Source: Pseudomonadota bacterium | GTDB taxonomy: Bacteria; Pseudomonadota; Gammaproteobacteria; Acidithiobacillales; Acidithiobacillaceae | Assembly: GCA_021821885.1 (NCBI GenBank) | Contig: JAKARO010000009.1 | Span: forward strand, 1-64,000 | Reading direction: 5' to 3' | Length of the DNA: 64,000 bases | Part shown: one piece after another, positions 5,188 through 25,157 of the stretch | Layout of the letters: the number at the start of each line of letters is the position of its first letter | Numbering within the stretch: position 1 is the stretch's first letter | Made by a program: the position numbers and the translations under genes | The notes under the pieces: model-generated | Told to the model about the DNA's origin: nothing | Database searches by the model: none | The model's input: only the letters and a program-made list of their open reading frames with translations

Positions 5188-5221
5188 GTCCGGCCACCGG
5201 AATCCGAAGGAGGACCACGCC

Positions 5222-5620: not shown

Positions 5621-5622
5621 AC

Positions 5623-6502: not shown

Positions 6503-7888
6503 ATGGCGGACCGGCATTCCATACAATCCACGACAGAACCCGAAAGGATGGCTTCCGCCGGCGGCGTAGGCATGATCTGGCTGGCGGCGACGATGACGGC
6601 GTCCACCCTGCCTCTCGGCGCCCTGATTGCCACGCTTTTCCCCCATGCGGCCTTCTTTTGGGTGGTGGCGGTCGCGGCGGCGTTTTTCCTGGGCGTCGGG
6701 GTGCTGAGCCTGCCGGGGTACCGCCTGGGCATACCGACCATGGCGGTTTCCGAACGGGTGTTCGGAAAGGGGGCGAACCGCCTGGTTTCCCTCGCCAGCT
6801 GGTTTTCCCAGATCGGATGGCAGGCGGTCGTCCTGGTCCTGGTCGTTTTCACGGTCCGCAGCGTGCTGGTGTACACCCGTCTTGTCCAGGGGCCGGAAGC
6901 GCTGTATGTGGCCATCGTTTTTTCCGTCCTGGCCAATTTCGCCGTCCCGGTCGCCGGATATGGCGCGATCGTCAGGGCGCAGACGGTGTCGTCGGTCATG
7001 ATGGGGCTGTTTGCCCTATACATTTTTCTGCATCTCGGTGGCCTGCCGCTCCTCGCCCATGGCCACGGTCCCGTATCGTTCCTGCAGACCGCGGGTGCCA
7101 TCTCCCTCGCCCTGATGGGGGGGGCGCTTTCCTGGACGATGTTTGCCTCGGACTATTCCCGGTTCATCCCCAGCCGGACCCGGTCCTGGCGGGTGGCGTT
7201 CTGGCCGGCCCTGGGAGGGGCCGCCGGCGGATCCCTGGTGCTTGCCCTGTCCTTTGTGCTCTATTTCCGGGGTGGCATTGCCCTTGGCCCCTCGGGACTT
7301 TCCCTTTCGGCAGGGGGAATGGCATCGGCCCCGCTGTATCTGGGATTCTGCCTGTTCGCGATGCTGGGGCTGCTGGCCTCCAATTTCCTGAATTCCTACA
7401 GTTCGGCGTTCAGCCTGGCGGTTTTTCTGGGCAGGGACCTCGACCGCAAATGGGTCACGGTGACCGATGCGGCCCTCGCCACCGGAATCGCCCTGTATGT
7501 GCTGTTTGTGTCTCCCTCGTTCCTCGATACGTTCCAGACGTTTCTGGATCTGCTGATTCTTGTGGCGGCCCCCTGGACCGGGCTGATGCTGGTCCGGGTG
7601 CTGCTGGGTCCCGGGATTTCCGGGACCGGCCCGGAACCCCTGGAGGGCGCGGCCAGCGTGCTCATTCTGGTGGCCGGGATTGCCGCGACCGCGGCGTTCT
7701 CCGACAACCCGCTCTGGACCGGTGCCGGTGCCGGCCTGTTCCAGGATACGGACCTCTCCCCGCTGGCGGGTTTTGGCCTGGCGGCCTTTCTGGGCCTTGC
7801 CTGCCGGCCGCTTCTGCGGGCGGCCGGGAACCGGATTCCGCGCGCGGTGGCCGCGGAAGTGGCGGGGCAGCCGGGGGCCGGAGAATGA
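6503..7888 (+). CDS. Purine/cytosine permease family (NCS1) transporter
   Basis: Polytopic membrane protein; FSQIGWQAVVLVLVVF, GALSWTMFASDYSRFIPSRTRSWRVAFWPALGG typical of CodB-type NCS1; stop overlaps next start (ATGA). Confidence 0.8.
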   Translation: MADRHSIQSTTEPERMASAGGVGMIWLAATMTASTLPLGALIATLFPHAAFFWVVAVAAAFFLGVGVLSLPGYRLGIPTMAVSERVFGKGANRLVSLASWFSQIGWQAVVLVLVVFTVRSVLVYTRLVQGPEALYVAIVFSVLANFAVPVAGYGAIVRAQTVSSVMMGLFALYIFLHLGGLPLLAHGHGPVSFLQTAGAISLALMGGALSWTMFASDYSRFIPSRTRSWRVAFWPALGGAAGGSLVLALSFVLYFRGGIALGPSGLSLSAGGMASAPLYLGFCLFAMLGLLASNFLNSYSSAFSLAVFLGRDLDRKWVTVTDAALATGIALYVLFVSPSFLDTFQTFLDLLILVAAPWTGLMLVRVLLGPGISGTGPEPLEGAASVLILVAGIAATAAFSDNPLWTGAGAGLFQDTDLSPLAGFGLAAFLGLACRPLLRAAGNRIPRAVAAEVAGQPGAGE

Positions 7889-9186
7889 CCATGGCCAGCC
7901 CCACGCCCAGGATCTACCGTAGCGCCCTGCTGAATCCCCAGGGGCCAGACCACTGGGACTTTATCCCCGACGGCGCCTGTGCCGTCCGGGATGGCCGGAT
8001 TGTGGCGATGGGCCACGCCCGTGACGTTGTCCGGCTGTACGGAAGCCCGGTGGAAACCGAGGACCTCGAAGGTGTCCTGGTGCCCGGATTCGCCGATCTT
8101 CACTGCCACTGGGTACAGCACGCCGTGCAGGGACGCTACGCCGGCGAGCTGCTGGACTGGCTCGAACAGCACATCTGGACCGAGGAGGCCCGCTATCTGG
8201 ATCCTGGCGTTGCGCGGCCGGCGGTCCAGGATTTCTACCGGAATACGCTGCGTGCGGGAACGGTCATGGGAATGAGCTTCTCGAGCGTGCATGCCGGGGC
8301 CCTGCATGCGGCAATGGAAGAAATGCGCGGGGACTGGATCGTGGGCAATGTCCTGATGCCGTGCAACGCGCCCCGGGAACTCCGGGAATACAGCCTGCAT
8401 GCGGAAGAGGCCCTGCAGGGGCTGGTTTCGGGTCTGGACCGGAACCGGTATGCGGTAACCCCGCGTTTTGCCCCGAACATGGATCCCCTGTGGCTGCAGG
8501 TGGCCGCGCGGATCGCCTCCCGCAACCATCTGCCGGTCCAGACCCATCTGGCGGAAAGCCGCGCGGAAGTCGCGTGGGTCAGGAAGATGTATCCCGGTGC
8601 GGGCAGCTATACGGAGGTGTACGACCGTGCCGGACTGGTCGGGCGGCGCAGCGTGCTGGCCCACTGCATTGAAATGGGCAGAAGCGAATGGAAATGTCTC
8701 GCCGAAAGGCAGGCCTGGGTGGCCCACTGCCCCAGCAGCAACGAGGCGCTGGGCAATGGCCGGATGCCCCTGGAAACGCTCCGTGAATACCGGATTCCTT
8801 TTGCCCTGGGTTCCGATATCGGGGCAGGGCCCAGCCACAGCATGCTGCACGTCATGCAGCGGTTCCTGGCGGTCCATCGCGCCGCGGGGATCCCGGTACA
8901 GCCGGAAGAGGCCCTTTTCCGGGCCACGGCCGCCGGCGCGCAGGCCATGGGCAGAGGGGCCGTGGCGGGTTCCCTGCACCCCGGGAAAAGGGCGGACTTT
9001 GTGCTGCTGCCCGGTAGTCCCCGGGAGGAACGGGAAATCCGGGGCTGGTTTGGGGAAGTGGTGGCCGGTTCCCCCGGAGAGCTGGAGAACCGGCCCCTGG
9101 GCACCTGGCTGGGCGGGATGCGGACCGCTCCTGCCGTGGGTGGGGGCTGTCCGGAACCGGGTCCGCAAACGGGAGGCACCCGATGA
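7885..9186 (+). CDS. Amidohydrolase, guanine deaminase / aromatic nitrogen-heterocycle deaminase-like
   Basis: VLVPGFADLHCHWVQ, LPVQTHLAES, VLAHCIEM, WVAHCPSSNEALGNGRMPL, ALGSDIGAGPSHSML metal-site motifs. Confidence 0.75.
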   Translation: MTMASPTPRIYRSALLNPQGPDHWDFIPDGACAVRDGRIVAMGHARDVVRLYGSPVETEDLEGVLVPGFADLHCHWVQHAVQGRYAGELLDWLEQHIWTEEARYLDPGVARPAVQDFYRNTLRAGTVMGMSFSSVHAGALHAAMEEMRGDWIVGNVLMPCNAPRELREYSLHAEEALQGLVSGLDRNRYAVTPRFAPNMDPLWLQVAARIASRNHLPVQTHLAESRAEVAWVRKMYPGAGSYTEVYDRAGLVGRRSVLAHCIEMGRSEWKCLAERQAWVAHCPSSNEALGNGRMPLETLREYRIPFALGSDIGAGPSHSMLHVMQRFLAVHRAAGIPVQPEEALFRATAAGAQAMGRGAVAGSLHPGKRADFVLLPGSPREEREIRGWFGEVVAGSPGELENRPLGTWLGGMRTAPAVGGGCPEPGPQTGGTR

Positions 9187-10208
9187 GCGGGGAACTCGCG
9201 GAACTGCTCCGGGCGATGCCGAAGGTGGAGCTGCATCTGCACCTGGAAGGGACGCTGGAGCCGGAAATGATGCTCCGGATGGCCGCCCGCAACCATGTTT
9301 CCCTTCCATACCGGACCGCCGCGGAGGCGGCGCGGGCCTACCGGTTCCCGAACCTGCAGGGTTTTCTGGACCTCTACGCCCTGGGGGCCCGCTGCCTGGT
9401 GACGGAAGAGGATTTTTACGAGCTTGCCATGGCGTATTTTTCCCGGTGCCGGGAGCAGAACATCGTCCACGCGGAGGTCTTTTTCGATCCGCAGGGCCAT
9501 CTTGCCCGGGGGGTCGCCATGGGAACCCTGTTTGCCGGCATCGAAGCCGCCAGGGACCGGATTTTCCGGGAGGCAGGCATGACCACGGAGCTGGTGCTCT
9601 GCTTTGAGCGGGACCGGCCGGCGGCCAATACGGTGGAACTGCTTGAGGAAGCCTGCCTGGCCGGCGAGATCGTGGGCATCGGCCTTGACTCCGCCGAACG
9701 GGGCAACCCCCCCGGGAAATTCCGCGAGGTCTTCGGGGCGGCCGCGGCCCTCGGCCTCCACCGTGTCGCCCACGCGGGCGAGGAGGGGCCGCCCGCCTAC
9801 ATCTGGGAAGCGCTCCAGGTACTCCAGGCCGAGCGGGTGGACCATGGCGTGCGCTGCACGGAGGATCCGGCCCTGGTGGCGTATCTGGCGGAGCGGCGGA
9901 TTCCCCTGACGGTCTGCCCCCTTTCCAACGTGGCGCTGGGCGTTTTCCCTTCCCTGGAGGCCCACAATCTGGGGCAGCTCTTCGAAGCCGGGCTGGCGGT
10001 CACGGTGCATTCGGACGATCCCGCCTATTTCGGCGGGTATCTCACGGAAAATCTGGTCTCCGTACTCGCCGCGCAGCAGATGGGAATACGGGAAGCCGTC
10101 GCCCTGCAGCGCAACGGCATTGATGCGGCATTCTGCAGTGCGGAAAGGAAGGCCGGGCTGCACCGGCAGCTTTCCGGGTTTCTTGAGTCCTGGGGTATCC
10201 CTGTCTAG
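9183..10208 (+). CDS. Adenosine/adenine deaminase family protein
   Basis: MPKVELHLHLEGTLEPEMMLRMA, RVAHAGEEGPPAYIWEAL, RVDHGVRC, PLTVCPLSNVALGVF, VHSDDPAYFGGYL. Confidence 0.85.
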   Translation: MSGELAELLRAMPKVELHLHLEGTLEPEMMLRMAARNHVSLPYRTAAEAARAYRFPNLQGFLDLYALGARCLVTEEDFYELAMAYFSRCREQNIVHAEVFFDPQGHLARGVAMGTLFAGIEAARDRIFREAGMTTELVLCFERDRPAANTVELLEEACLAGEIVGIGLDSAERGNPPGKFREVFGAAAALGLHRVAHAGEEGPPAYIWEALQVLQAERVDHGVRCTEDPALVAYLAERRIPLTVCPLSNVALGVFPSLEAHNLGQLFEAGLAVTVHSDDPAYFGGYLTENLVSVLAAQQMGIREAVALQRNGIDAAFCSAERKAGLHRQLSGFLESWGIPV

Positions 10209-10224: not shown

Positions 10225-11220
10225 GTGAAAATCCTGCTGCGGGCTTTGTTTCTTGGAATGGCGGTTCCCGCATCCATTCTCTCCGTCTGTGCCGGGGCGC
10301 CGGATGCGTGGGCGTCTCCTGCCGTTTTTGCCCCGAAGGTGATCGTGCTGACGGCGTTTCCTCCCGAATGGCATGCCTGGACGGCGGACCCCGCATACCA
10401 TTACCGGACACTTTCCGTGAAAGGGCTGATCCGGCCCCTGGTCTGCAGCCGGAAGAAGGTGTGCGTCACCGAAAGCGGGGAAGGAGAAATCAATGCGGCC
10501 GTTACGGTGGCCGGCCTGGTGGAGGATCCGGCCCTCGATCTCCGGAACACCGTGTTCCTGCGCAGCGGGATCGCGGGGGGCGTGGATACCCGGGATTCCC
10601 CGCTGGGCAGCGTCTATATCAACAGCTGGGTCATTTCCTGGGCGTTCGGCCACCACTATCTTACGGAGGGAAAGAAGCTGTCCTGGGCCCCGCCGGGGTG
10701 CGCGGACTATTCCAGGCCGGGAAAATGCGGGGAATACCGCCAGAACACCCTGGAAAACCTGGCCTATCCGGCGGACCGGAAGCTGCTGGACGTCGCGAGA
10801 AAGGCCGGAACGGGGCTGGTCCTGGACAATTCTGCGGGGGCCGTGCGCCTCGACCGGAAATTTGGGACGGCCACCACGCCCGTGGTCCGTACGGGTGCTA
10901 CGGTCACCGGTGACGATTTCTGGATTGGCAGGGAAAACCAGGCAATCGCCCGTAAAATTGTCCGGCTGTATACCCACGGAAAAGCCCGCTACACCAATAC
11001 GGCGATGGAAGACCTGGGCGATGTCGCAGCCCTGGCCCGCTTTGGGCTGGCCTCCCACTACCTTTCCATACGCGGCATATCCGATATTGATGTCCCTCCT
11101 CCAGGGAAGACCGAAGAGGAAATCTGGAAAAAAGGGGACCTCTATGCCGGCCGACTGGCCGAACGCAACGCCGTCCTGGTGACACGGGCGGTCATCCGCA
11201 AGCTTCTGGAGGAACAGTGA
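10225..11220 (+). CDS. Purine nucleoside permease (NUP) family protein with signal peptide
   Basis: Signal peptide, then FAPKVIVLTAFPPEWHAW...GIAGGVDTRDSPLGSVYINSWVISWAFGHH; GTG start after aggaaggaggt. Confidence 0.65.
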   Translation: MKILLRALFLGMAVPASILSVCAGAPDAWASPAVFAPKVIVLTAFPPEWHAWTADPAYHYRTLSVKGLIRPLVCSRKKVCVTESGEGEINAAVTVAGLVEDPALDLRNTVFLRSGIAGGVDTRDSPLGSVYINSWVISWAFGHHYLTEGKKLSWAPPGCADYSRPGKCGEYRQNTLENLAYPADRKLLDVARKAGTGLVLDNSAGAVRLDRKFGTATTPVVRTGATVTGDDFWIGRENQAIARKIVRLYTHGKARYTNTAMEDLGDVAALARFGLASHYLSIRGISDIDVPPPGKTEEEIWKKGDLYAGRLAERNAVLVTRAVIRKLLEEQ

Positions 11221-13487
11221 GGTCCGGGGAACGGGATTTTTCCCGCAATCCCCTGCGCCTGGACGGGATGGACAAGATTCTGGGCCGGACGCCCTATCTG
11301 GACGACCTCCATCTGCGGGACCCGGATCTCCTGTTTGCCGCCACGGTCCGGACCACCCTTCCAGGGGGCGTGCTCGAGGGCATTGATTTTGGCGGGGGAA
11401 CGGACTGGTCGGACATGACCGTGGTCACCGCCCGGGACATCCCGGGAACCAACGCGGTCCGGCTCCTCGAAAACGACCAGCCGGTCCTGGTGGAAAGGGA
11501 ATTCCGCCACGCCGGCGAGGCGGCCGTCCTGCTGGCCCATCCCGACCGGCGCAGGCTCCGGAAAGCACTGCTCCAGGTGCGTCTGGCCGAGCGGCCGGCG
11601 GGTGTGCCGGTTTTCACCATTGAGGCGGCCCTGCAGGGGCAGGCGGAGACCATACCGGGGAACACCTACACGGAGTACCGCCTGGAAAAATCCGGCCCCC
11701 GCCAGGAAACCGGGCACCCGGACACGGTGATCGCGGTGGAGGTGGAAACGCCCTCCCAGGAACAGCTCTATATTGAACCCCAGGGCATGGTCGCGCGCCT
11801 GGCGCCAGACGGGGTTGTGCGCGTGGAGGGTTCCATGCAGTGTCCCTACTATGTGCTGGATGCCCTGGTCCAGTGCCTTGGCCTGCCAGCCAGCCGGATC
11901 CAGGTCGTCCAGACGGCGACGGGCGGCGGTTTTGGCGGCAAGGAAGACTTTCCCTCCGTCATTGCCTGCCACGCCGCGCTGCTGGCGCTCCGGGCCGGGG
12001 GCAGACCGGTGCGGCTGGTACTGGACCGCGCCGAGGACCTGCGGGTTACCCCCAAGCGCCATCCCTCCCGCAGCCGGGTCCGGCTGGCCGCCACCCCGGA
12101 GGGGCGCCTGCAGTCGGTGGCATTCGATTTTGATCTCGATGGCGGGGCGTACCGGACGCTCAGCCCGGTCGTTCTTTCCCGGGGAGTGATCCACGCACCC
12201 GGCCCCTACCGCTGTCCCGATGTCCGGGTGACCGGCCGGGCGGTGTTTACCAGCCATCCCCCCTTTGGCGCATTCCGGGGTTTTGGGGCGCCGCAGAGCA
12301 TTTTTGCCATGGAGGTCGCAATGGACCGCCTGGCCTCCCGGCTGGAGATGGACCCGGCCGAGTTCCGCAGAAAAAATCTGCTCTGTCCTGGAGATACCGG
12401 GCCGACGGGCGATATTGCGGGGGAGGACACCCACGCCCGGAAAGCCCTGGACGTTGCCCTGGAGCGGAGCGGCTATGCGCGCAGGCGGACGGAACATGAG
12501 GCGTGGAACCGGGCAGGAGGCCCGACCCGCCGGGGGATTGGCCTCGCCACCTTCTGCCACGGCGCGGGATTTACCGGAAATGGCGAGACGCATCTGGCCT
12601 CCCGGGTGACCCTGGCCGCCACCGCGGAAGGAAAGGTCGAACTGCTTGTTTCCAATACCGAGATTGGGCAGGGGGCGGCCACCACCCTGGTCCAGGTCGC
12701 CGCGGAGGCACTGGGCATTCCCATGGATCTGGTCGTCTTCGGGCCGGTCGACACGGCCCGGGTCCCCAACTCCGGGCCCACGGTGGCGTCGCGCACCTGC
12801 ATGGTCGTGGGAAAACTTCTGGAAAAGGCGGCCCGGCGCTTCCTGGAACAGCTCCCGCCCGCCGGTGGAAAGGGCAATGCCCCTGGCCGCCCGGACTTCC
12901 AGGAAGCCTGCCGGAAACTGCACGCGCTGGGAGGCGCTGGAGAGGTGACGGAGACCTATGCTGCGCCGCCCGGCCCCGCCTGGGATGAAAAAACGTTTCA
13001 GGGGCGCGCCTACGCCAGCTACGCCTGGGCGGCCTACGTCGCGGAGGTGGAAGTGGACCTGGTGACCTTCGAGACCCGGATCCTGCATTTTACGGCGGTC
13101 CAGGAAATTGGCCATGCCGTCAACCCGCAGATTGCCCTGGGCCAGATTGAGGGAGGAATCGTCCAGGGCATCGGCTGGGCCCTTCTGGAAAACGTCGTCT
13201 GGAACGGGTCCGGGGTGATGGCCAATGACCGCCTGGCCACCTATATCATTCCGACGTCGGCCGACATCGACGGGATCGACGTGATCCTGCTCGAAGAGGG
13301 ACAGGGCGCGGGGCCGAGGGGAGCCAAGGGCATTGGCGAGCTGCCCATGGACGGTCCCGCGCCGGCCATAGCCAATGCCGTGCGGCACGCCCTGGGCGTC
13401 GACGTCGACCGCCTTCCCCTGACACCCGAATACCTGCATGCACGGCTGGCGGAACAGCAGGAGGTTCACAGTTGGCTGTCGAAATGA
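11217..13487 (+). CDS. Xanthine dehydrogenase-family molybdopterin-binding subunit
   Basis: TATGGGFGGKEDFPSVIACHAALLAL, HPPFGAFRGFGAPQSIFAMEVAMDRLA, GPRGAKGIGELPMDGPAPAIANAV. Confidence 0.88.
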   Translation: MRSGERDFSRNPLRLDGMDKILGRTPYLDDLHLRDPDLLFAATVRTTLPGGVLEGIDFGGGTDWSDMTVVTARDIPGTNAVRLLENDQPVLVEREFRHAGEAAVLLAHPDRRRLRKALLQVRLAERPAGVPVFTIEAALQGQAETIPGNTYTEYRLEKSGPRQETGHPDTVIAVEVETPSQEQLYIEPQGMVARLAPDGVVRVEGSMQCPYYVLDALVQCLGLPASRIQVVQTATGGGFGGKEDFPSVIACHAALLALRAGGRPVRLVLDRAEDLRVTPKRHPSRSRVRLAATPEGRLQSVAFDFDLDGGAYRTLSPVVLSRGVIHAPGPYRCPDVRVTGRAVFTSHPPFGAFRGFGAPQSIFAMEVAMDRLASRLEMDPAEFRRKNLLCPGDTGPTGDIAGEDTHARKALDVALERSGYARRRTEHEAWNRAGGPTRRGIGLATFCHGAGFTGNGETHLASRVTLAATAEGKVELLVSNTEIGQGAATTLVQVAAEALGIPMDLVVFGPVDTARVPNSGPTVASRTCMVVGKLLEKAARRFLEQLPPAGGKGNAPGRPDFQEACRKLHALGGAGEVTETYAAPPGPAWDEKTFQGRAYASYAWAAYVAEVEVDLVTFETRILHFTAVQEIGHAVNPQIALGQIEGGIVQGIGWALLENVVWNGSGVMANDRLATYIIPTSADIDGIDVILLEEGQGAGPRGAKGIGELPMDGPAPAIANAVRHALGVDVDRLPLTPEYLHARLAEQQEVHSWLSK

Positions 13488-13930
13488 CCATTAATGGTTT
13501 GCCCTGCCGCAGTACGGCCGATCCGGCGTGCCGGCTTCTGGATGTCCTGCGGGAAGAATTCGGACTGCCGGGAACCAAGGAGGGATGCGGGGAAGGGGAA
13601 TGCGGAGCCTGCGCCGTCCTTGTGGATGGCCAGCTGGCCAACAGCTGCCTCGTGCCGGTGGGACAGCTGGAAGGTGCGGCAGTGACCACGATAGAGGGAA
13701 TCCCGGCCAATTCGCCGGTGGCCCAGGCCTTCCTGGCCTGCGGCGCGACCCAGTGCGGAATCTGTACCCCGGGGATGGTCATGGCTACCGTGGCCCTGCT
13801 CCAGGACAATCCCCGCTGCACCCGGGAAGACGTCCGCCGGGGTCTCAGCGGCAACCTGTGCCGCTGTACCGGCTATGCGCGGATCTATGAGGCCGTCCTC
13901 CAGGCCGCGGGAGACCTGCCCCATGACTGA
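13472..13930 (+). CDS. 2Fe-2S subunit of xanthine dehydrogenase-family hydroxylase
   Basis: GCGEGECGACAVLVDGQ and CGICTPGMVM...GLSGNLCRCTGYARI cysteine motifs. Confidence 0.92.
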   Translation: MAVEMTINGLPCRSTADPACRLLDVLREEFGLPGTKEGCGEGECGACAVLVDGQLANSCLVPVGQLEGAAVTTIEGIPANSPVAQAFLACGATQCGICTPGMVMATVALLQDNPRCTREDVRRGLSGNLCRCTGYARIYEAVLQAAGDLPHD

Positions 13931-14780
13931 ATGGCGGCGGCCGCGGCATCTCCGGGAAGCGCTGGAGCTCCTGGGAGAATCTCCGGACCGGTACCGGATT
14001 GTGGCGGGTGGTACGGATGTCATGGTGGAGCGGCATCTCCATCCGGAGAACGCGCCGGCCGGCTGGCTGGATATCAGTGGACTGTCCGAACTGCGGGGGA
14101 TCGCCCGCCTGGAAACCGGGGAACTCCGGGTCGGCGCCATGACCCCCCTGTCCGCCGTGCGCGAGGATGCGGCCGTGCGGGAGTCCTGGCCCCTGCTGGC
14201 CGCATCCGCCGCCGTTACCGGGGCCCCGGCCATCCAGAACCGGGCTACCCTGGGAGGCAACATCTGCAATGCCTCACCCGCGGCCGACAACCCCCCGGTC
14301 CTGCTGGCCTATGGCGCCGAAATCGAGATTGCGTCGGCGGGTGGGGTCCGCCGGATTCCCTACAGCGCGTTTCACGCCGGCTACCGCAGGACGGTTCTGG
14401 GCCAGGGCGAGATGGTGACCGGGCTGTGGCTGAAGCCGGTTCCGCGCGGGTCCCGGCAGTATTTCCGCAAGGTGGGTACCCGGGCGGCCCAGGCCATCAC
14501 CAAGGTAGGCCTGGCGGCGGTCGTTCCTTTCGGACCCGACGGGACGGTCCGGGGGGCGCGGTTCGGATTTTCCAGTGTGGCGGAAACACCCTGTCTGGCC
14601 CGCACCACCGCGGCCGCCCTGGAAGGACGGTCTCCGCTGGCCGTGCCGTCCGGGGAGATCGGGGCGCTGCTGGAACAGGACATTGCCCCGATTTCCGATC
14701 TCCGCTCGACCGGAGCCTATCGCAGGCAGGTGGCGGCCCGGCTGGTCCGGGAGGCCCTGCAGGCCGGCCATTTCCAGTAA
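13923..14780 (+). CDS. FAD-binding subunit of xanthine dehydrogenase-family hydroxylase
   Basis: YRIVAGGTDVMVE and ATLGGNICNASPAADNPPVLLAYGAEIEI motifs. Confidence 0.88.
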   Translation: MTEWRRPRHLREALELLGESPDRYRIVAGGTDVMVERHLHPENAPAGWLDISGLSELRGIARLETGELRVGAMTPLSAVREDAAVRESWPLLAASAAVTGAPAIQNRATLGGNICNASPAADNPPVLLAYGAEIEIASAGGVRRIPYSAFHAGYRRTVLGQGEMVTGLWLKPVPRGSRQYFRKVGTRAAQAITKVGLAAVVPFGPDGTVRGARFGFSSVAETPCLARTTAAALEGRSPLAVPSGEIGALLEQDIAPISDLRSTGAYRRQVAARLVREALQAGHFQ

Positions 14781-14793
14781 CCGGGAGGAAAAT

Positions 14794-15366
14794 ATGGAAG
14801 TTGCAGAAAACGTGTATGTGGAGGTACCCCTTCTGGACGCCACGCCGGAAAGCCTGGAGGAGTACGGGATCCTGATCGGGGAAACCGTCTGCCAGCCCGG
14901 ACTGGCCATCCCCTTCTACCAGGGCAGTGTGGAAGAGGGGCAGAACCTGGATTTCCGGTACGCCGGCCAGGCCGTCGTGCGCACGGCGCGCATCTCCCGC
15001 CGGAGCCCCGAGGTCACCTGGCTGGAACGGCATCTGCGCATGACCCAGATTTTTGTGGGTCTTGGGGGATCGCCTTTTGCGATGGTGCTGGGGAAGCCCA
15101 ACCACCAGAAAGGCGAAGAGATTCCGCGTCTGGAAGATGTCCGCGCATTCCGCCTGCCCGCCGGCCATGGGCTGATGATCCACGCCGGGACCTGGCACGA
15201 TTTCCCGATGGCGCTGGAGGAGCCCGTGACGGTACTGACGATGAACTCGGCCGAAGTCGTGGAGGCCCTGGCCCATGCGGCGTCGGCGGACGAAATGGAC
15301 ACCGGCGACGTGTTCAAGATTGATGTCCGGCGCCGGACGGGCAAGACCCTCCGGGTCCCCTTCTGA
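14794..15366 (+). CDS. Ureidoglycolate lyase (AllA)-like protein
   Basis: 190 aa cupin-like; LERHLRMTQIFVGLGGSPFAMVLGKP, VRAFRLPAGHGLMIHAGTWHDFPMALEEPVTVLTMNSAEVV. Confidence 0.65.
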   Translation: MEVAENVYVEVPLLDATPESLEEYGILIGETVCQPGLAIPFYQGSVEEGQNLDFRYAGQAVVRTARISRRSPEVTWLERHLRMTQIFVGLGGSPFAMVLGKPNHQKGEEIPRLEDVRAFRLPAGHGLMIHAGTWHDFPMALEEPVTVLTMNSAEVVEALAHAASADEMDTGDVFKIDVRRRTGKTLRVPF

Positions 15367-15380: not shown

Positions 15381-16460
15381 ATGCAGACGCGCATTTTCCG
15401 TTTTTTCACCCGGGACCCCGCCGATACCCGCGCGCTGGAGACGGCCGTGCGGGAGGGACGGATGGACCCCCGCGAAATTGTGGCGATTATCGGCAAGACC
15501 GAAGGAAACGGCGCCGGAAACGATTTCAGCCGCGGCCTGGCGACCCTCGCCTGCACCGGATGGCTGGCCGCCCATCTCGGCTGTACGCCGGAAGAGGCCG
15601 GAGAACGGGTCGTCCTGTCCTTTTCGGGGGGGACGGAAGGCATCGTGGCGCCCCACCTGCTGGTGTTTGCGGTCTCGGGATCTCCACGGGCGCAGCCCCG
15701 GGAAGGGAAGCGGCTGGCCGTGGCCGTGGGCCATACCCGTCCCTTCCTGGCCGCCGAGGCGGGCGGGATGGCCATGGTGGAGGAAACCGCCAGGGCGGTG
15801 CACGGGCTCATGGCGGGGCTGCGGGTCGAGCCCGGGGATGTGCACCTGGTGCAGGTCAAGGGGGCGATGCCTGTCCGGGGTCCGGAATCCCTGGACGCCA
15901 CATCCGGCTGCGACATGGCGGGATCCCGGGCAGCCTCTGCCCTGGGCGTGGGCCTCGCCCTCGGAGAAATTGCCGGAACCCGCCTGGATCCCGGGGCCGT
16001 CAACCGGGACTGGGGACTGTACTCGACCCGTGCCAGTGTCTCGGCCAAGCCGGGGCTGGCACGCTCGGAGATCTGCCTTTTCGCCAATTCTGCCTACTGG
16101 GATGGCGATTTCGCCATCGCCCACGATGTCATGGAAGACATCCTGGATGTTCCCGCCATCTACCGGGTCCTGGCCCGTCTGGGGCTGCATCCCCGCAATG
16201 GCCAGCTCCCTCCGGAAGACCGGGAGCGGCTCGTGGCCATTTTTGCCAAATCCGATGCCGATCCGCGCGGAACGGTCCGGGGGCGCCGCCATACCATGTG
16301 GAGCGATGGCGACATTTCCGACATGCGCCATTCGCGCTGCGTGGTTTCGTCCCTCCTCGCGGGCGTGACGGGGGAGACCGCCGTGTATGTCTCGACCCGC
16401 GCGGAGCACCAGGGCCCGCCCGGTGGCGGTCCCGTGGCCCTGATCGGAAAAGCGCCGTGA
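15381..16460 (+). CDS. Ring-opening amidohydrolase (barbiturase / cyanuric acid amidohydrolase family)
   Basis: REIVAIIGKTEGNGAGNDFSRGLA, VVLSFSGGTEGIVAPHLLVF, VHLVQVKGAMPV, SRAASALGVGLALGE, RHTMWSDGDISDMRHSRCVVSSLLAGVTGETAVYVSTRAEHQGPPGGGPVALI. Confidence 0.82.
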   Translation: MQTRIFRFFTRDPADTRALETAVREGRMDPREIVAIIGKTEGNGAGNDFSRGLATLACTGWLAAHLGCTPEEAGERVVLSFSGGTEGIVAPHLLVFAVSGSPRAQPREGKRLAVAVGHTRPFLAAEAGGMAMVEETARAVHGLMAGLRVEPGDVHLVQVKGAMPVRGPESLDATSGCDMAGSRAASALGVGLALGEIAGTRLDPGAVNRDWGLYSTRASVSAKPGLARSEICLFANSAYWDGDFAIAHDVMEDILDVPAIYRVLARLGLHPRNGQLPPEDRERLVAIFAKSDADPRGTVRGRRHTMWSDGDISDMRHSRCVVSSLLAGVTGETAVYVSTRAEHQGPPGGGPVALIGKAP

Positions 16461-17443
16461 GCGCGGAGGCCGCACCGGCCGCCAGACCCCGTGTGGTGCG
16501 GGAGGCCCTGGTCACCGGTGTCCGGGGATCGGCCCCGGCGGAGGTCGGGGCAAGCATGGTGCTGCTCGACAGTGGCCGGTTTCTGGGGACCGTCGGAGGG
16601 GGAAGGCTGGAGCATGCGATACAGGGGGCCATGCGCGGGTTTCCGGAACAGCCCGGCTGGCGGCAGCGGACCTTCACCCTGGGCGCACTGGAAGACCAGT
16701 GCTGCGGGGGCGTGGTGGACGTTGCCATCGTGGAGGTTCCGGAGCATTTTGCCTGCCTGTACCGGGATGGGGCTTCCCGCCTGTATGCGGCGGAGAACGG
16801 GCAGGAACTCCGGCTCGCCGGGGGCACGGCCGCCGGGGGCACGGTGGTGGGGGAAGGCTGGCGCACCGGGCTGCCGGACCCGGCGGGCAGACCGCTTGTC
16901 CTCCCCGCGCAGGGGGTATTTTTTCTGCCGGCCGTCTGTCCTCCCCCGCTGTGGATTTTCGGCGCCGGGCATGTGGGACGCGAGCTGGCACGCTTTGCCG
17001 CAGGGCTGGATTTTGCCGTGACCGTGTTTGACGACCGGCCGGACTGGCTGGACCCGTCTGCCTTTCCCGGTTCCGTACGGCTGGTGGAAGGATGGAATCC
17101 GGAACTGCCGCCCGGGGATGGCCGCAGCCTGTCCGTAGCCGTCCTGACGTACAGCCACGCAACCGACTACGCCCTGCTCGAGCATTTCTGCCACGGCCAG
17201 CCCGCCTACCTTGGGGTGATCGCCAGCCGTTCCAAGGCCGCAAGGTTTTCCCGCGCCCTGGCCCGGAGGGGGATCCGGACGCCCGCCTTCCTGCACATGC
17301 CGATGGGAATCCCGGGCCTCGGCAAAAAGCCGGCGGAAATTGCCATCAGTGTCCTTGCGGAAATTCTGCAGCAGCGCCATACGGTTTCTGGTAGGGAAGG
17401 AGAGTGCCATGCAAGAGCAGAACGAAGGGTGTCCCGGTCCTGA
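16457..17443 (+). CDS. xdhC: XdhC/CoxI-family molybdenum hydroxylase maturation protein
   Basis: GSAPAEVGASMVLLDSGRFLGTVGGGRLEHAIQ, QCCGGVVDVAIVEV, LWIFGAGHVGRELARF, YLGVIASRSKAARF, GLGKKPAEIAISVLAEILQ; GTG start overlapping previous stop. Confidence 0.85.
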   Translation: MSAEAAPAARPRVVREALVTGVRGSAPAEVGASMVLLDSGRFLGTVGGGRLEHAIQGAMRGFPEQPGWRQRTFTLGALEDQCCGGVVDVAIVEVPEHFACLYRDGASRLYAAENGQELRLAGGTAAGGTVVGEGWRTGLPDPAGRPLVLPAQGVFFLPAVCPPPLWIFGAGHVGRELARFAAGLDFAVTVFDDRPDWLDPSAFPGSVRLVEGWNPELPPGDGRSLSVAVLTYSHATDYALLEHFCHGQPAYLGVIASRSKAARFSRALARRGIRTPAFLHMPMGIPGLGKKPAEIAISVLAEILQQRHTVSGREGECHARAERRVSRS

Positions 17444-17609
17444 GGACGGATTTTACCGGCAGATGCTGCTGCTGAACGGTCTGCGCATTCCGGAGGAATG
17501 GCGGGCGGAGGTCGCGAGGTATTTCTGCATTTCCTGGCGCATGGCCCGGCAGCTCCAGGCCTGCCCCATGGACCTGCGGGATGAGCCGGCTCCCGTTTTC
17601 CGTGCGTGA
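17409..17609 (+). CDS. AtzG/HpxX-like small subunit (DUF4089 type)
   Basis: 66-aa ORF immediately upstream of and overlapping an AtzE-like amidase; FYRQMLLLNGLRIPEEWRAEVARYFCISWRMARQL. Confidence 0.65.
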   Translation: MQEQNEGCPGPEDGFYRQMLLLNGLRIPEEWRAEVARYFCISWRMARQLQACPMDLRDEPAPVFRA

Positions 17610-19036
17610 GGAGAAGAAAATCCATGCGGGAAGTTTCGGCAGTGGAAATGGCCCGGAAAGTCCGGGCCGGGGAGTGGCCGGCGGAGGAAGTGCTGGAATG
17701 TTTTCTGGGGCACATACACAGAAGCGATCCTGCCATCAACGCCTTTACGCGGATTACGGAAGACCGGGCACGCCGGCAGGCGAGGGAGGTTGACCGGAAA
17801 ATCCGGGCGGGCGAGGATCCGGGCGTTCTGGCCGGGGTACCCTTCGCGGTCAAGAATCTCTTCGACCTGCGGGGCGAAATCACGGTGGCCGGCGCGACTG
17901 TCACCCGGGAGGATCCCCCTGCGGAACGGGATGCCACCATCGTCGGCAGGCTGCAGGATGCCGGTGCCGTGCTTCTCGGTGCCCTGAACATGGGGGAGTT
18001 CGCCTACGATTTCACCGGGGAAAACATCCATTATGGCCCCTCGCGCAACCCCCACGACCTGTCCCGGATGACCGGGGGTTCCAGTGGCGGCAGTGGCGCC
18101 GCGGTAGCGGGCGGGCTGGTGCCGCTGGCCCTCGGCTCGGACACCAACGGATCGATCCGGGTACCGGCCTCCCTCTGTGGCGTGTTTGGCCTCAAGCCCA
18201 CGTTTGGCCGTCTTTCCAGGAAGGGGTGCTATCCCTTCTGTCCCAGTCTGGACCATGTCGGCCCCCTGGCCCGCACCGTACGGGATCTTGCCCTTTCCTA
18301 CGATGTCATGCAGGGCCACGATCCCGGGGACCCGGTCTGCTCGGCACGGGATCCGGAGCAGGTCTTTCCGCAGCTGGACCGTGGCTGCGCGGACCTCCGG
18401 ATTGCGGTGGCCGGCGGCTATTTCCGGGAGCGGGGAACGGAAGCGGCCCTTGCGGCCGTGCGGGCCGTGGCGGCGGAACTGGAGGTCCGGGACGAGGCGG
18501 AAATTCCGGGTGTCCCGGAAGCGAGGGCCGCCGCCTATCTCATCACCAACGCCGAAAGTGCCAGCCTGCATCTGGAACGTCTCCGCCACCGGGCGGGGGA
18601 ATACGATCCGGACGTACGGGACAGGCTGCTGGCCGGATCCCTGCTGCCGTCAGACTGGCTGTTCCGGGCACAGCGTTTCCGCGCGGAATTCCAGAAGGCC
18701 GTGTACCGGGTTTTTGAGCGGTTTGATGTGCTTCTGGCACCGGCCACGCCCATGAGCGCACCGCCCATCGGGCAGCGGCAGATGGTCCTGGACGGAGAAA
18801 CCATGCCGGTCCGCCCCCATCTCGGCCTGTATACCCAGCCGCTGTCTTTCGTCGGCCTGCCGGTCGTGGTGGTGCCGGTCCGGGCAGACGGAGCGCTGCC
18901 CATTGGCGTACAGGTTGTCGCCGCCCCCTGGAAGGAGATGGATGCGCTCCGGGTGGCGGCCGTGCTGGAAGAAAAGGGATTCCGGAGTACAGTGCCGCAA
19001 CAGTGGAGGGATGCAGATGATTTCAGGGGAAATTAA
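17606..19036 (+). CDS. AtzE/HpxY-family amidase (amidase signature enzyme)
   Basis: [73 protein letters not shown] amidase signature; possible start 17624. Confidence 0.83.
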
Positions 19037-19403
19037 CCGTCCGGACATACACAGGGAGGTGATGGAGGCCTTCGTGCGCTACGAGCAGGCGCTGCTGGCC
19101 AACGATGTGGACGTGCTGGATGAACTGTTCTGGAACAGCCGTTTCACGGTCCGCTACGGCATCGCGGAAAATCTCTACGGATACGGCGCCATCGCCGGCT
19201 TCCGGGCAGCCCGTCCGGTCCCGGTGCCCGCCCGGCAGCTGGCCAACACGCAGATCACCACCTATGGACCGGATTTCGCCACGGCCAATACCGAATTCCT
19301 GCGGGAAGGGGTCCACGGCAGGCAGAGCCAGACCTGGATGCGTACCCCGGACGGGTGGAGGGTTGTGTCGGCCCATGTCAGCCTGATGCCGGGAAAGGGA
19401 TGA
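19017..19403 (+). CDS. AtzH/HpxZ-like protein (DUF3225/SnoaL-like)
   Basis: [54 protein letters not shown]...[23 protein letters not shown]. Confidence 0.75.
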
Positions 19404-19410
19404 GCCCGGG

Positions 19411-20025
19411 ATGACCGCTGCCGTGATTGTGGCCGGCGGCCGCTCCGCACGGTCCGGGCGCCAGCACAAATCCTGCCGGCGTTTCCCGGTTCCGGGCGAG
19501 CGCCGGACCTGGCTGGACCGCCAGGTGGACCAGCTGCGGCGCGCCGGGTTTGCGCCGGTTACCGTGGTGACCGGGCTCCGGCCGCGCCGCCTGCTGTCCT
19601 GCCTGCACCGCCGGGTCCGGCTGCGGCATTGCCGGACCGCCAGGTCCGGGCCGTTCCACACCCTCTGTGCCGGCCTCGGGAATGTCCGGGGACCCGTTCT
19701 GCATGTCCAGTCCGATACGGTGCTTCCGCACGTGCCGCTGCTGCGCAGGCTCCGTCATTCCGGGAAGCGGGGCAGGGCCGTCGCGACCGGCCTGCGCGAC
19801 CAGCGGGGCCATGGCGGGCACCCCCTGCTGCTTTCCGGGGCCTTTGCCGGAAAACTGCTGGACATGTTCCGGAAAGGTGGCGAAACCCGCCTCGACCGGG
19901 AACTCCGGCGGCTGTCCGCACAGGAATATGTGCGGATCCCGGTCCGTCGCCAGATCGGCCATCCCCGGCTGGACAGCCGCCGGGCCTGGCATGCCGCGCG
20001 CAGGAAACTGAAGGCGCTCCGGTGA
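19411..20025 (+). CDS. MocA/MobA-like nucleotidyltransferase
   Basis: AAVIVAGGRSARSGRQHKSCRRFPVPGERRTWLDRQVDQLRRAGFAPVTVVTG; GHGGHPLLLSG; divergent N-terminal G/K pattern. Confidence 0.55.
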   Translation: MTAAVIVAGGRSARSGRQHKSCRRFPVPGERRTWLDRQVDQLRRAGFAPVTVVTGLRPRRLLSCLHRRVRLRHCRTARSGPFHTLCAGLGNVRGPVLHVQSDTVLPHVPLLRRLRHSGKRGRAVATGLRDQRGHGGHPLLLSGAFAGKLLDMFRKGGETRLDRELRRLSAQEYVRIPVRRQIGHPRLDSRRAWHAARRKLKALR

Positions 20026-21650
20026 GGTCCGGGGCCGTTCCGCAAAGTCCGGCTGCCGGCACCAGCGGCGTGGTGTCGTCTCCCCACTGGCTGGCGTCCG
20101 AAGCCGGTGCGGAGATCCTGCGGCGCGGCGGCAACGCCGTGGAAGCCGCCATCGCCGTCTCGTCCACGCTTGCGGTGGTCTATCCCCACATGAATGGCCT
20201 CGGGGGCGACGGTTACTGGCTCGTTTCCGATGGCCGTTCGGGGTCCGTCCAGGGAATCGCGGCGGCAGGGCCGGCGGGGCGTGGCTATCACACCGGGGTG
20301 TTCCCGCCGGCGGGCCGGACAGGCATTCCCTTTCGTGGCGGTCTCGCGGCCCTGACTGTCCCGGGCGTGGCAGGAGGATGGGATCTTGCGTACGCCCATT
20401 CCCGGGAAAACTGGGGCGGCAGGCTTTCCTGGGACGTCCTGCTGGACCGCGCCATGGGGTACGCGGCGTCCGGGTTCCCCGTCAGCGCCAGCCAGTGCCG
20501 GGCCCTCCGCGACCACGCGGGGGAACTGGAGGGGCAGCCTGGCTTTGCCAGACATTTTCTGCGGGAAAACCGTCTTCCGCCCGGAGAAGGGACGGTCTGG
20601 GCCCAGCCGGATCTGGCGCGTTCCCTGCGGATGATTGCTGGTGAGGGGCCACAGGTGTTCTATCAGGGCAGACTCGCCCGCGCCATGGTCCAGGGACTGC
20701 AGCGGGCCGGAAGCCGGCTGGTGGAGGAAGATCTGCAGGCGTACCGCGCGCGCTGGGTTTCTCCCCTCCGGGTCCGTTTTGGCCGGGGAGAGCTCCTCAA
20801 CCTTCCCCCGCCTACCCAGGGCGTGGCGTCGCTGATGATCGCCGCGGTGCTGGACCGCATGGACGTGCACCGGCTTCCGCCCCTGGGTGCCGAATTCGTC
20901 CATCTGGCGGTGGAAGTGACGAAGCAGGTCTTCCGGTACCGGGATGCCCTCGTCGCGGATCCCGATTTTCAGGGCATGACGGTGGAGCACCTGCTCACGG
21001 ACCTGTCCCTCGAGCGCTGTGCCCGTTCCATCGACCGTGAATCCGCCGCATGCCCGCCGCCGGGAGGACCTGCGACCGGGGATACCGCATGGTTTGGCGT
21101 CGTGGATGCGTCCGGACGCATGGTGAGTGCCATCCAGAGTCTCTACCACGAATTCGGAACGGGTGTGGTTGCCGGGGACACCGGAATTGTCTGGAACAAC
21201 CGCGGCTGTGCCTTCTCCCTGGAGACGGGGCATGCCAACGTGCTGGCGCCCGGGAAACGGCCCTTCCACACCCTCAATCCGGCCATGTACGCCGAAGATG
21301 GCCAGGTCCGCATGGCCTACGGAACCATGGGAGGGGACGGGCAGCCCCAGACGCAGGCCGCGGTCCTGTTCCGGGCCCGGCGGTACGGCTGGCCGCTGGC
21401 GGAGGCCATTTCGGCTCCCCGCTGGCTCTACGGACGGACCTGGGGGGAGCCTGCGGCCGGACTGCGCCTGGAGTCCCGCTACGGGCGGGATGTGGCCGAA
21501 ACCCTGCAGCGCTGGGGGCATGCGGTCACCTGGGTGGAACCCTACAGCGATCTCATGGGCCATGCCGGGGCGCTGGCGTGCACCCCGGACGGATGCTGCA
21601 CCGGGGCCGCAGACCCCCGGTCGGATGGGGCCGCTGTGGCCGCCTCCTGA
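20022..21650 (+). CDS. Gamma-glutamyltransferase superfamily protein (HpxW/oxamate amidohydrolase-like)
   Basis: SSPHWLASEAGAEILRRGGNAVEAAIAVSSTLAVVYPHMNGLGGDGYWLV; ATGDTAWFGVVDASGRMVSAIQSLYHEFGTGVV Ntn-type catalytic Thr region. Confidence 0.78.
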   Translation: MRSGAVPQSPAAGTSGVVSSPHWLASEAGAEILRRGGNAVEAAIAVSSTLAVVYPHMNGLGGDGYWLVSDGRSGSVQGIAAAGPAGRGYHTGVFPPAGRTGIPFRGGLAALTVPGVAGGWDLAYAHSRENWGGRLSWDVLLDRAMGYAASGFPVSASQCRALRDHAGELEGQPGFARHFLRENRLPPGEGTVWAQPDLARSLRMIAGEGPQVFYQGRLARAMVQGLQRAGSRLVEEDLQAYRARWVSPLRVRFGRGELLNLPPPTQGVASLMIAAVLDRMDVHRLPPLGAEFVHLAVEVTKQVFRYRDALVADPDFQGMTVEHLLTDLSLERCARSIDRESAACPPPGGPATGDTAWFGVVDASGRMVSAIQSLYHEFGTGVVAGDTGIVWNNRGCAFSLETGHANVLAPGKRPFHTLNPAMYAEDGQVRMAYGTMGGDGQPQTQAAVLFRARRYGWPLAEAISAPRWLYGRTWGEPAAGLRLESRYGRDVAETLQRWGHAVTWVEPYSDLMGHAGALACTPDGCCTGAADPRSDGAAVAAS

Positions 21651-21668: not shown

Positions 21669-22574
21669 CTAGGGGGTCCCGGACAGGCTGCGCATTTCCT
21701 CGCCCATGCTCTCGGAAAACCGGGCTGCGGCGACCGGGAGTCCCCGGTTGCGCAGCTGGGCGCAAATGATGGGGACCGGCCGGATGTCCACGGTCGAGAC
21801 CGGCCGGTACACGGTGTTGCCGGTTTCGCCGCCCCGGGCACCGGCAGAGAGGACGAAGCCGATGTTTTCCGTGCCCTGGAGCAGCCCCCGCAGGATCTCG
21901 TAGGAATTTGTTTCGACGGCAATCCGGGTCCCGGACCGGTGGCGGTTCAGGGCCGTTTCCAGCATCTGCCGGGTGGTCAGTCCCTCGGCCGGGAGCACGA
22001 GCGGGTACTGGAGGCAGTCGCCGAGACGCAGGTCCTGCCGCCCGGCAAGCGGGTGCCCACGGTCCATCGCGGCCATGAGGGGCTGGTGGGAGACCGCCAG
22101 GACAAAGACGTCGGGGTGTTCCGGCGGCGCCACAATCACGGCGAGATCCACATCAAAGTTGAGAAGCGCACGGATGGCCGCCGCGTGTTCCGTAACCGTC
22201 ACCCGGAACGAAACGCCGGGATACTGCGCGCGGAAATCCGCAACGGCCCGGGGGACCAGGTCGGCCGCCAGCGCCGGACTCACCGCCAGGGAGATCTGTC
22301 CCCGGCGCAGGCCCTTCAGGCTGTCAATTTCCGACCGCAGCCGCTGCATGTCGGACAGGTGCCGCCGGACATACCCCATCAGGAGCTCGCCGGCCGAGGT
22401 CAGGCGCATGCCACGGGGGTGGCGCTCGAAAATGGGGGTTTCCAGCTCTTCCTCCAGGTCCTGGAGCCGCCGGTCCAGGGCCGAGGCCGTGATGAAGAGC
22501 CGGTCCGCCGCCCGCCTTACGGAACCCTCCCGGACGATGGCGTCCAGATACTGGAAAAGACGGATGTGCCGCAT
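21669..22574 (-). CDS. LysR-family transcriptional regulator
   Basis: RLFQYLDAIVREGSVRRAADRLFITASALDRRLQDLEEELETPIFERHPRGMRLTSAGELL. Confidence 0.88.
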   Translation of the reverse strand: MRHIRLFQYLDAIVREGSVRRAADRLFITASALDRRLQDLEEELETPIFERHPRGMRLTSAGELLMGYVRRHLSDMQRLRSEIDSLKGLRRGQISLAVSPALAADLVPRAVADFRAQYPGVSFRVTVTEHAAAIRALLNFDVDLAVIVAPPEHPDVFVLAVSHQPLMAAMDRGHPLAGRQDLRLGDCLQYPLVLPAEGLTTRQMLETALNRHRSGTRIAVETNSYEILRGLLQGTENIGFVLSAGARGGETGNTVYRPVSTVDIRPVPIICAQLRNRGLPVAAARFSESMGEEMRSLSGTP

Positions 22575-22823
22575 CAGTTCACCGTTGCTTTTTATGAAAC
22601 GTTCCAGGGAAAAAATAGCACTTTCCTGAAAACGCTTCCAATCCCATCATGGAACGGCAGCAAAATATCCGTTGCGCACCATATTGGTGACTTTATCTGC
22701 TCCTGCACTTTTTTCGCGCGGGAATATAAAAGGGACCACCAGTAACCATGGGCGCGGTTCGCAGTTTCAGCTGGCATGGTATTTGAATGCCATTCCGGAA
22801 AGCATGCATCGAGGGAGAACCAC

Positions 22824-25157
22824 ATGATATCGGAAAAGAATATCCGGGTCAGGCGAAGCGTCATGGCCTCACTGGGGGTACTGGTTGTAGGATACCACCA
22901 GGCCATTGCCTACGGTGCAGAAAAAACAAAACCGGATAAAAAGGTATACAAAATTGAAGGCGTAAAAAAGAATCTTTTGCGCATGGTGGACAAAAAGGCG
23001 CTGACCCAGGTAAAACCTGTCTACGGTGCGGAAACGGCGCTGATTCCCAAAGAGTTCATAAATGGGCAGGAATCCACGCAGAACGCATCGACCATCCTCA
23101 GTTTTGTCCCTGGCATAAATGCCGTCAGCACCAATCCGATTGGCGTAAAAACACACATTTCCGTGCGTGGCTTTTCCCAGACACAGGTCGGATACACCTT
23201 TGACAACCTGCCAATTGCCGATCTTTTCAACGGCGGCCTTTCAGGAGGAAACAACAACTACGCCGACCTCACCAACCTGGTCCCCGTTACCCTGGGCCAG
23301 ACCTCGGGAATCCGCGTGACCTACGGCACCCCATCCCCGGACATCAATGCGGTCGGCGCCATTGGCGGAAACATTGACTATCTTCCCCGGATGCCGGGAA
23401 AGAAAGCGTATGAATCCGTGTTTGGGGGGTACGGTTCCTTCAATACGCAAAGCTATGGTGCGGAGCTGAATACCGGGAAAACCGCGGGATACGGAAACCT
23501 CTTCATGCGGTTTTCTTCCCGCCAGACCGCGGGATATCTCCAGAATACCCCCGACCGGCTCTATTCCTATTACGCCGCGTACGATCTTCCGCAGATTTCC
23601 CCCACCTCCAGGTGGTCCCTGGTGTTCCTGCTGAACAAGAACCAGGGATCCACGCCGGCGCGGATGCCGGTGGATCTCCTCAGCCAGTATGGCCGCTACT
23701 ACCAGTGGCCTGCCAGCTTTACCTATGCCAGCAGCCATACCGAGCACATGATGGCCATACTGCAGAACAAGACCCTGCTTTCTTCCAGTGCGGTCCTGGG
23801 ATTCAAGGGGTTTTACAGCTATACGAACTCGGACCGCCTGGAATACATCAATCCGGCTGTGAGTTCACCGTATAACGGCTTTGTTACCTTCTACCTGAAC
23901 CCGGCAGAAACGGTATGCCAGTATTCCGGCAACAATTTTACGGGGGACAGCTCGCCAGCCTGTCTCGCCCAGACCATCAGCGGGGACAACTACCACAGCT
24001 ATTCCTACCAGACGGACACCTTTGGCTTCAATCCTTCCATACGCTGGTTCCATAAATATGTCGATCTGGATGCCGGAGGCCTCGCGGCCGTCTCGCTGTA
24101 CCATTCGCAGGATTATGTCTACGGGACCCCGCAGGTGCCCTATATTCCCGGATACAACAATCTCTGGGACGAGCATGGCTGGAGAATGTACAGCAAGCTG
24201 TATGCCCAGGCGAAAATCAGGCCCATCCAGGACCTGGATGTGGTGCCAGGCATCAAATACGAGATCGTGGCCACCCACCTGAACGACGTGCCGGGGTACT
24301 ACTATACGGTCGGGTCGAGCAGCGGCAATACCTACAGCGAAATCAGCCCCTATGTCGGAATCCAGTACCGGCCCATCCGGCCCCTGAAGCTGTATGCCGA
24401 TTACGCCACAGGCTACAAGTATCCAAACATTACCGCGTTCTATTCGGCCGACGGCAACGCCACGACCACCAGTCCGTCCACCCCGGTCACCATACGGCCA
24501 GAACGCGTGGACACCTACCAGTTTGGCGTCCAGTACCACCAGGGAGGACTGGAGGTCAGCACGTCCTTTTACCGGTCGGAGTTCGCCCATACCTTCAGTT
24601 CCTATTACGATCCCACTACCGGCCTGACCTACGAATACAATATCGGTTCGTCGCAGTATCAGGGAATCAACCTGGCCACCCAGTATGCGCTGGACCCGTA
24701 CGTGTCCCTGTACGGAAACTATTCCATACAGGAGGCCATCTATACGAGCAGCTCGACGAGCCAGTATGGTGTGGCAACCAGCGTGGGGGAACCCCGGCCC
24801 AATACCCCAACCTATCTTGCCGGACTGGGGCTCCTGGCGCACTACGGGCGCACGCGCGCGCGCCTGTACGCCAATCTTGTCGGCCCGCAGTACATCGAGG
24901 CGAGCACGGGGGCTCCCACCTCCGGCAGCATGCCGTCCTACACCACGATGAATTTCAACCTGTCCCACACGTTCCCGGTCGGCCTTTACGGAGTCCGGAA
25001 CGTGACGCTCAGCCTGACCGGGGTCAATCTTCTCAATTCGCAGGCCTATGTGCTGGAAAAACTGTTCCCCTACGCCAATGGCGCTCCGGGCAGCTATCTG
25101 GAAGGGGAGCCCATGATGCCGAGATCCTTCTTTGGCACCATGAAGGTGGTGTTCTGA
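22824..25157 (+). CDS. TonB-dependent outer-membrane receptor
   Basis: Signal peptide, plug domain (LSFVPGINAVSTNPIGVKTHISVRGFSQTQVGYTFDNLPI), long beta-barrel, C-terminal Phe; start at ATG 22824 after gagggagaa. Confidence 0.88.
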   Translation: MISEKNIRVRRSVMASLGVLVVGYHQAIAYGAEKTKPDKKVYKIEGVKKNLLRMVDKKALTQVKPVYGAETALIPKEFINGQESTQNASTILSFVPGINAVSTNPIGVKTHISVRGFSQTQVGYTFDNLPIADLFNGGLSGGNNNYADLTNLVPVTLGQTSGIRVTYGTPSPDINAVGAIGGNIDYLPRMPGKKAYESVFGGYGSFNTQSYGAELNTGKTAGYGNLFMRFSSRQTAGYLQNTPDRLYSYYAAYDLPQISPTSRWSLVFLLNKNQGSTPARMPVDLLSQYGRYYQWPASFTYASSHTEHMMAILQNKTLLSSSAVLGFKGFYSYTNSDRLEYINPAVSSPYNGFVTFYLNPAETVCQYSGNNFTGDSSPACLAQTISGDNYHSYSYQTDTFGFNPSIRWFHKYVDLDAGGLAAVSLYHSQDYVYGTPQVPYIPGYNNLWDEHGWRMYSKLYAQAKIRPIQDLDVVPGIKYEIVATHLNDVPGYYYTVGSSSGNTYSEISPYVGIQYRPIRPLKLYADYATGYKYPNITAFYSADGNATTTSPSTPVTIRPERVDTYQFGVQYHQGGLEVSTSFYRSEFAHTFSSYYDPTTGLTYEYNIGSSQYQGINLATQYALDPYVSLYGNYSIQEAIYTSSSTSQYGVATSVGEPRPNTPTYLAGLGLLAHYGRTRARLYANLVGPQYIEASTGAPTSGSMPSYTTMNFNLSHTFPVGLYGVRNVTLSLTGVNLLNSQAYVLEKLFPYANGAPGSYLEGEPMMPRSFFGTMKVVF

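Follow-up and report, generated by a model that had tools for sequence, protein, structure and literature searches.

Analysis of the receptor TBDR1 and its surroundings suggests that an outer-membrane pump of the iron type has been wired into the purine-breakdown cluster of an acid-loving sulfur bacterium, where it would fetch purines as food. The reading that we favour, and consider probable, is nitrogen-scavenging TonB-dependent uptake of purine nucleosides or bases, under NtrC control in relatives at least. The window, which is the whole stretch of 64,000 nucleotides that was analysed, is part of a 1.74-Mb MAG (G000; 91% complete) of the Acidithiobacillaceae. The cargo recognised for TonB-dependent uptake consists mainly of iron complexes, cobalamin and some sugars; searches of the open literature turned up no paper on receptors of this type for purines or nucleobases, which is no proof that none exists. 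If the reading is true, the range of cargo known for TonB systems would be extended by a receptor class that is nitrogen-controlled and linked, through gene order and common promoter elements, to the breakdown of purines and pyrimidines, and acidophilic lithoautotrophs would scavenge nitrogen from nucleic-acid remains; the finding supplies a named receptor, regulator sites and candidate substrates.

The receptor and the adjacent regulator occupy the following positions in the window:

22824..25157, plus strand: TonB-dependent receptor TBDR1 (PF07715, PF00593; alignment A1; tree)
21669..22574, minus strand: LysR-type regulator (PF00126 and PF03466; divergent ortholog in the loci of 12 relatives)

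Both the PF07715 plug and the PF00593 barrel of the receptor scored above the Pfam cut-offs, as did the PF00126 (HTH_1) and PF03466 (LysR_substrate) domains of the regulator. The receptor start, ATG 22824, is followed by a signal-like leader recognised by eye, and an in-frame alternative ATG lies upstream at 22776. In alignment A1, a conserved KxYxI around residue 40 might represent the TonB box, and the C-terminal aromatic residue, F777, was invariant. The original prediction had described a minus-strand LysR gene divergent from a TonB-dependent receptor, and the open reading frames lay where it had placed them, with fitting domains; the regulator is also adjacent to the last catabolic gene, as described, although the gap to this convergent GGT-family gene, which ends at 21650, is 18 bp and not 19. 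Between the receptor and an MFS gene at 25812 there is a short gene (window 25370-25663) that looks HU/IHF-like by eye.

At its other end, the same cluster is opened by genes for ExbB, ExbD and TonB (4486-6459), again as had been proposed, and the recognised genes run in this order:

4486..5187, plus strand: ExbB (PF01618)
5222..5620, plus strand: ExbD (PF02472)
5623..6459, plus strand: TonB (PF03544)
6503..7888, plus strand: NCS1-type nucleobase permease (PF02133)
7885..9186, plus strand: guanine deaminase-like amidohydrolase (profile match under the NCBIfam equivalog cut-off)
9183..10208, plus strand: adenosine/adenine deaminase family (PF00962)
10225..11220, plus strand: NUP-family protein (phosphorylase superfamily), possible periplasmic nucleosidase (PF06516; signal-like leader by eye)
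11217..14780, plus strand: three subunits of xanthine dehydrogenase type, Mo, FeS and FAD (domain matches)
14794..15366, plus strand: ureidoglycolate lyase-like protein (PF04115)
15381..16460, plus strand: AtzD/TrzD-family ring-opening amidohydrolase (PF09663, NF052395)
16457..17443, plus strand: XdhC
17409..17609, plus strand: short AtzG/HpxX-like ORF (position and sequence only)
17606..19403, plus strand: AtzE/HpxY-type amidase and HpxZ (TIGR02715 and NF033625 above cut-off)
19411..21650, plus strand: MobA-like NTP transferase and GGT-family (HpxW-like) hydrolase (domain matches)

AtzD attained the NCBIfam cut-off for cyanuric acid amidohydrolase, and HpxW could be assigned only at the level of the GGT family with the NCBIfam models. 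HpxY and HpxW belong to the oxalurate/oxamate steps of purine degradation (PMC12625717), in which HpxZ is placed by model NF033625. Like the hpxWXYZ genes of Klebsiella, the cluster has HpxZ, an HpxY/AtzE-type amidase and a GGT-family HpxW-like hydrolase, but it adds AtzD, the ureidoglycolate lyase-like protein and TonB uptake, and no HpxO/uricase or allantoin enzymes were among its recognised genes. Neither a nuclease nor a phosphatase was recognised in the cluster. Outside the family, ureidoglycolate lyase-like and AtzD genes were seen paired without the remaining cluster genes (L050:5701-7328).

Receptor orthologs are 74-77% identical, form one clade in the tree, and adjoin the cluster in nearly all relatives that have both. 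The order from ExbB through the GGT-family gene to LysR and receptor was kept in about 10 other Acidithiobacillaceae genomes (some contig-split or with genes lost) and was permuted in two more, G019 and G022, in which LysR and receptor, still attached as a pair, are found at the exbB end; in view of this recurrence, the arrangement is not due to chance. Among 29 family genomes, receptor and guanine deaminase were both present in 14 and both missing from 14, with one genome having the deaminase only and none the receptor only (Fisher p=2e-7); for receptor and AtzD the counts were 13 with both, one with the receptor only, one with AtzD only and 14 with neither (p=3e-6), and since kinship between genomes was ignored in these tests, independence is overstated. 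The deaminase-only exception, G008, in which a receptor ortholog was not found, has the core from xanthine dehydrogenase to GGT on a single contig; on another, at L109 (G008:C23, 951-13872), genes for an NMT1-type ABC importer and two 2OG-Fe oxygenases adjoin those for a LysR homolog and guanine deaminase, and TonB uptake genes were not found beside them. From G007 the genes for xanthine dehydrogenase, XdhC and the MobA-like protein have been lost, and no xanthine dehydrogenase match occurs elsewhere in its genome; the receptor has been kept there, together with most of the cluster. In G005 (61% complete), the receptor is reduced to a 3' remnant adjoining an MFS gene, and the purine cluster was not found. 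The GGT-family gene of G022 seems interrupted or frameshifted (L048:5137-8270). Synteny, co-occurrence and the promoter elements described below strongly support TBDR1 as the putative outer-membrane gate of the purine cluster; the original prediction is thus partly supported, the ligand itself being something that we infer.

The elements recognised upstream of exbB and between lysR and the receptor were as follows:

4233..4276, plus strand: LysR-type element upstream of exbB, CGTCAACTAAAAGGAAACG ... GAAAAATGAACTTTCC, conserved in relatives
4326..4369, plus strand: paired NtrC-like boxes upstream of exbB, starts 29 bp apart (8 and 9 of 10 consensus bases)
4431..4446, plus strand: sigma-54-like -24/-12 promoter of exbB, TGGTACACGGATTGCT (10 of 12 consensus bases, p=0.01)
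22583..22626, no strand assigned: LysR-type element by the lysR start, CGTTGCTTTTTATGAAACG ... AAAAAATAGCACTTTCC, T-N11-A, conserved in relatives
22676..22719, plus strand: paired NtrC-like boxes before the receptor, with 9 and 7 of 10 consensus bases; the window copy is degenerate (score reached by 0 of 300 shuffles)
22772..22791, plus strand: imperfect sigma-54-like element before the receptor; the window lacks the GG-N10-GC spacing, and relatives have the canonical form

The score of the exbB box pair in the window was likewise reached by 0 of 300 shuffles. The box found at receptor and exbB is the published E. coli NtrC consensus, TGCACCAnnnTGGTGCA (PMC8743547; also PMC4987338), and perfect copies of it stand upstream of amtB in G014 and G008; because of these two matches the palindromes were read as NtrC boxes, and their reading as LysR sites was rejected, the LysR element being a separate block. 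A box pair 29-30 bp apart (p<=0.01, 300 shuffles) was present in the receptor promoters of 12 of 13 genomes, the window included, with G007 as the sole exception; in 11 of these 12 promoters a sigma-54-like element followed 57-69 bp past the pair. Most exbB promoters had the same layout, with the sigma-54-like element at 76-80 bp; the pair test gave only a weak result in G007 and failed in G004, whose sequence ahead of exbB looks unrelated. Seven of eight control receptors were without an NtrC-like pair (p>=0.29); the eighth (L076:8926-15342), whose neighbours are ExbB/ExbD and peptide-ABC-like genes, has such a pair together with a strong sigma-54 element.

This arrangement resembles the NtrC/sigma-54 regulon of glnK-amtB and glnA (PMC8743547, PMC4987338) in its TGCACC-N5-GGTGCA boxes and -24/-12 promoter, but here the elements sit at a TonB receptor and at exbBD-tonB, and are degenerate in the window. 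RpoN was present, and NtrC scored above the TIGR01818 cut-off in genus-mates G002-G007; none did so in G000, at 91% completeness. Because the boxes are degenerate, the receptor sigma-54 spacing is off and NtrC was not found, nitrogen control in the window may be decayed: it may have been lost in G000, or the NtrC gene may lie in an assembly gap. In relatives at least, the receptor appears, from these promoter motifs, to be switched on by nitrogen hunger. Such control in relatives had been overlooked originally, as had a parallel receptor beside pyrimidine genes.

The LysR-type element, GTTGCgTTTTatG...AAAAATAgCACTTTA with a T-N11-A core, was found at three kinds of site: by the lysR start, in front of exbB, and ahead of an operon of nucleosidase-like and second-receptor genes. 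A strict pattern gave 15 matches in 19 genomes, and all of these lay at the lysR-receptor, exbB or nucleosidase/receptor-2 loci or upstream of them; the reversed control pattern gave 0 matches in the 19. On the exbB side the element reads GTTGCGTTTT..AAAAAGAACTTTA in relatives; the window copy diverges and misses the strict pattern, and divergent copies missed in this way are carried by the window, G004 and G007. The conserved block adjoining lysR is likely to be a LysR site.

From these genes and elements we infer the ligand, the direction of transport, the periplasmic site of the NUP-family protein and which proteins bind the elements. With energy from the cluster-encoded ExbB-ExbD-TonB, the receptor would bring purine nucleosides or bases into the periplasm, where the NUP-family protein with its signal-like leader would free the base; the NCS1 permease would then move the base into the cytoplasm. 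There, its nitrogen would be removed by guanine deaminase, adenosine/adenine deaminase, xanthine dehydrogenase, AtzD, AtzE/HpxY, HpxZ and GGT/HpxW-type enzymes, with ammonia released by downstream hydrolases and deaminases. LysR, whose effector is probably a purine or an intermediate of the pathway, and NtrC with sigma-54 (in relatives at least), sensing nitrogen shortage, would both act on the receptor and exbB promoters. Nucleosides are favoured because the NUP-family protein carries a leader, as read by eye; a nucleobase-type substrate had been envisaged originally, and the NUP and NCS1 genes fit purine nucleosides at least equally well. Nucleosides and bases are generally able to cross porins, so that it is not obvious why active uptake would be needed. 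In Bacteroides, the Rus system takes up ribose and nucleosides through SusC/SusD-like proteins, including the SusD lipoprotein, and serves ribose and carbon use. The present system is like Rus in coupling TonB-dependent outer-membrane uptake to nucleoside-cleaving enzymes, but no SusD was seen here, and both its enzymes and its control elements speak for nitrogen use.

A paralog of the receptor, TBDR2, 34% identical, ends a reductive pyrimidine cluster in five relatives (G004, G007, G014, G015 and G018), alongside genes for PreA, dihydropyrimidinase, NCS1 permeases, cytidine deaminase and nucleosidase-like proteins; no molybdenum enzyme was recognised in this pathway. The TBDR2 receptors that close pyrimidine-catabolic clusters are:

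L022:15454-17832
L067:8417-10768
L068:9096-11447
L029:2871-5234
L066:10381-12765

A more tentative reading, which is quite conceivable, is that the Acidithiobacillaceae have a nitrogen-regulated pair of TonB receptors, one for purine and one for pyrimidine nucleosides or bases, sharing a dedicated ExbB-ExbD-TonB and one LysR; if true, acidophilic lithoautotrophs would possess a class of TonB transport devoted to nucleic-acid nitrogen. Other receptors that group with the paralog in the tree lie beside PF04185 phosphoesterases (L070:2674-10283, L071:4271-8332, L062:9566-14866, L105:6520-12467), some with ExbB/ExbD/TonB, and possibly serve phosphorus scavenging; no paired NtrC boxes were found in those tested. 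The placement of TBDR1 relative to the paralog and phosphoesterase-linked clades was poorly resolved in the tree. At L073:883-7215, the neighbours of a paralog-related receptor are genes for an NCS1 permease, a flavin-dependent oxidoreductase and a ureidoglycolate lyase-like protein.

Ligands other than purine nucleosides or bases were weighed against this gene content. TBDR1 might import another ring compound of the cluster, such as urate, an oxidised purine product, or a cyanurate- or barbiturate-like imide for AtzD, in keeping with the cyanuric acid amidohydrolase match of that enzyme and with G007, where AtzD and the receptor are retained without xanthine dehydrogenase and AtzD must, for that reason, be fed another way. 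The genes adjoining exbBD-tonB, however, and kept with the receptor in G007, are those for guanine deaminase, adenosine/adenine deaminase, NUP and NCS1, and the paralogous receptor stands with cytidine deaminase and nucleosidase-like genes, so that we regard a ring-compound ligand as unlikely. Import of nucleotides, oligonucleotides or nucleic-acid fragments, to be degraded in the periplasm, is suggested by the phosphoesterases and ExbB/ExbD/TonB beside the paralog-grouping receptors; against it, the purine cluster has no recognised nuclease or phosphatase and the phosphoesterase-linked receptors tested have no paired NtrC boxes, and we consider it very unlikely.

A metal ligand is still less probable than either. 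That the receptor supplies molybdenum, or another metal, for xanthine dehydrogenase would fit the molybdenum hydroxylase, XdhC and MobA-like protein encoded in the cluster, but the receptor persists in G007 after the loss of all three, which argues against a molybdenum receptor and led us to reject the idea, and its paralog accompanies a pyrimidine pathway without a recognised molybdenum enzyme; this explanation is scarcely credible. An ordinary iron, haem, siderophore or copper receptor adjoining the cluster by chance is hardly more so. In its favour, the nearest matches, all weak, were haem/haemoglobin-type models far under cut-off, and among solved structures (PDB sequence search) PhuR was nearest, at very weak similarity (E 6e-6). 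No curated siderophore, haem or copper receptor model was reached, only haem-type models scoring at all, with 49-60 bits against cut-offs above 316. A search of 13 receptor promoters found no Fur box (best 10-13 of 19, p 0.17-0.95), and Fur regulation was rejected on this ground; the Fur-regulated siderophore or copper receptor that the original prediction had named as its counter-case was thus not what we found. Synteny and co-loss with the cluster, and LysR and NtrC elements common to receptor and exbB, likewise stand against it. Structure prediction for the receptor from two sequences (window and L040) gave a pLDDT of 26. Haem receptors such as PhuR share with TBDR1 the plug and barrel, the ExbB-ExbD-TonB partners and the C-terminal phenylalanine, whereas TBDR1, very weakly similar to solved receptors and reaching no specific model, has LysR and NtrC elements in place of a Fur box.
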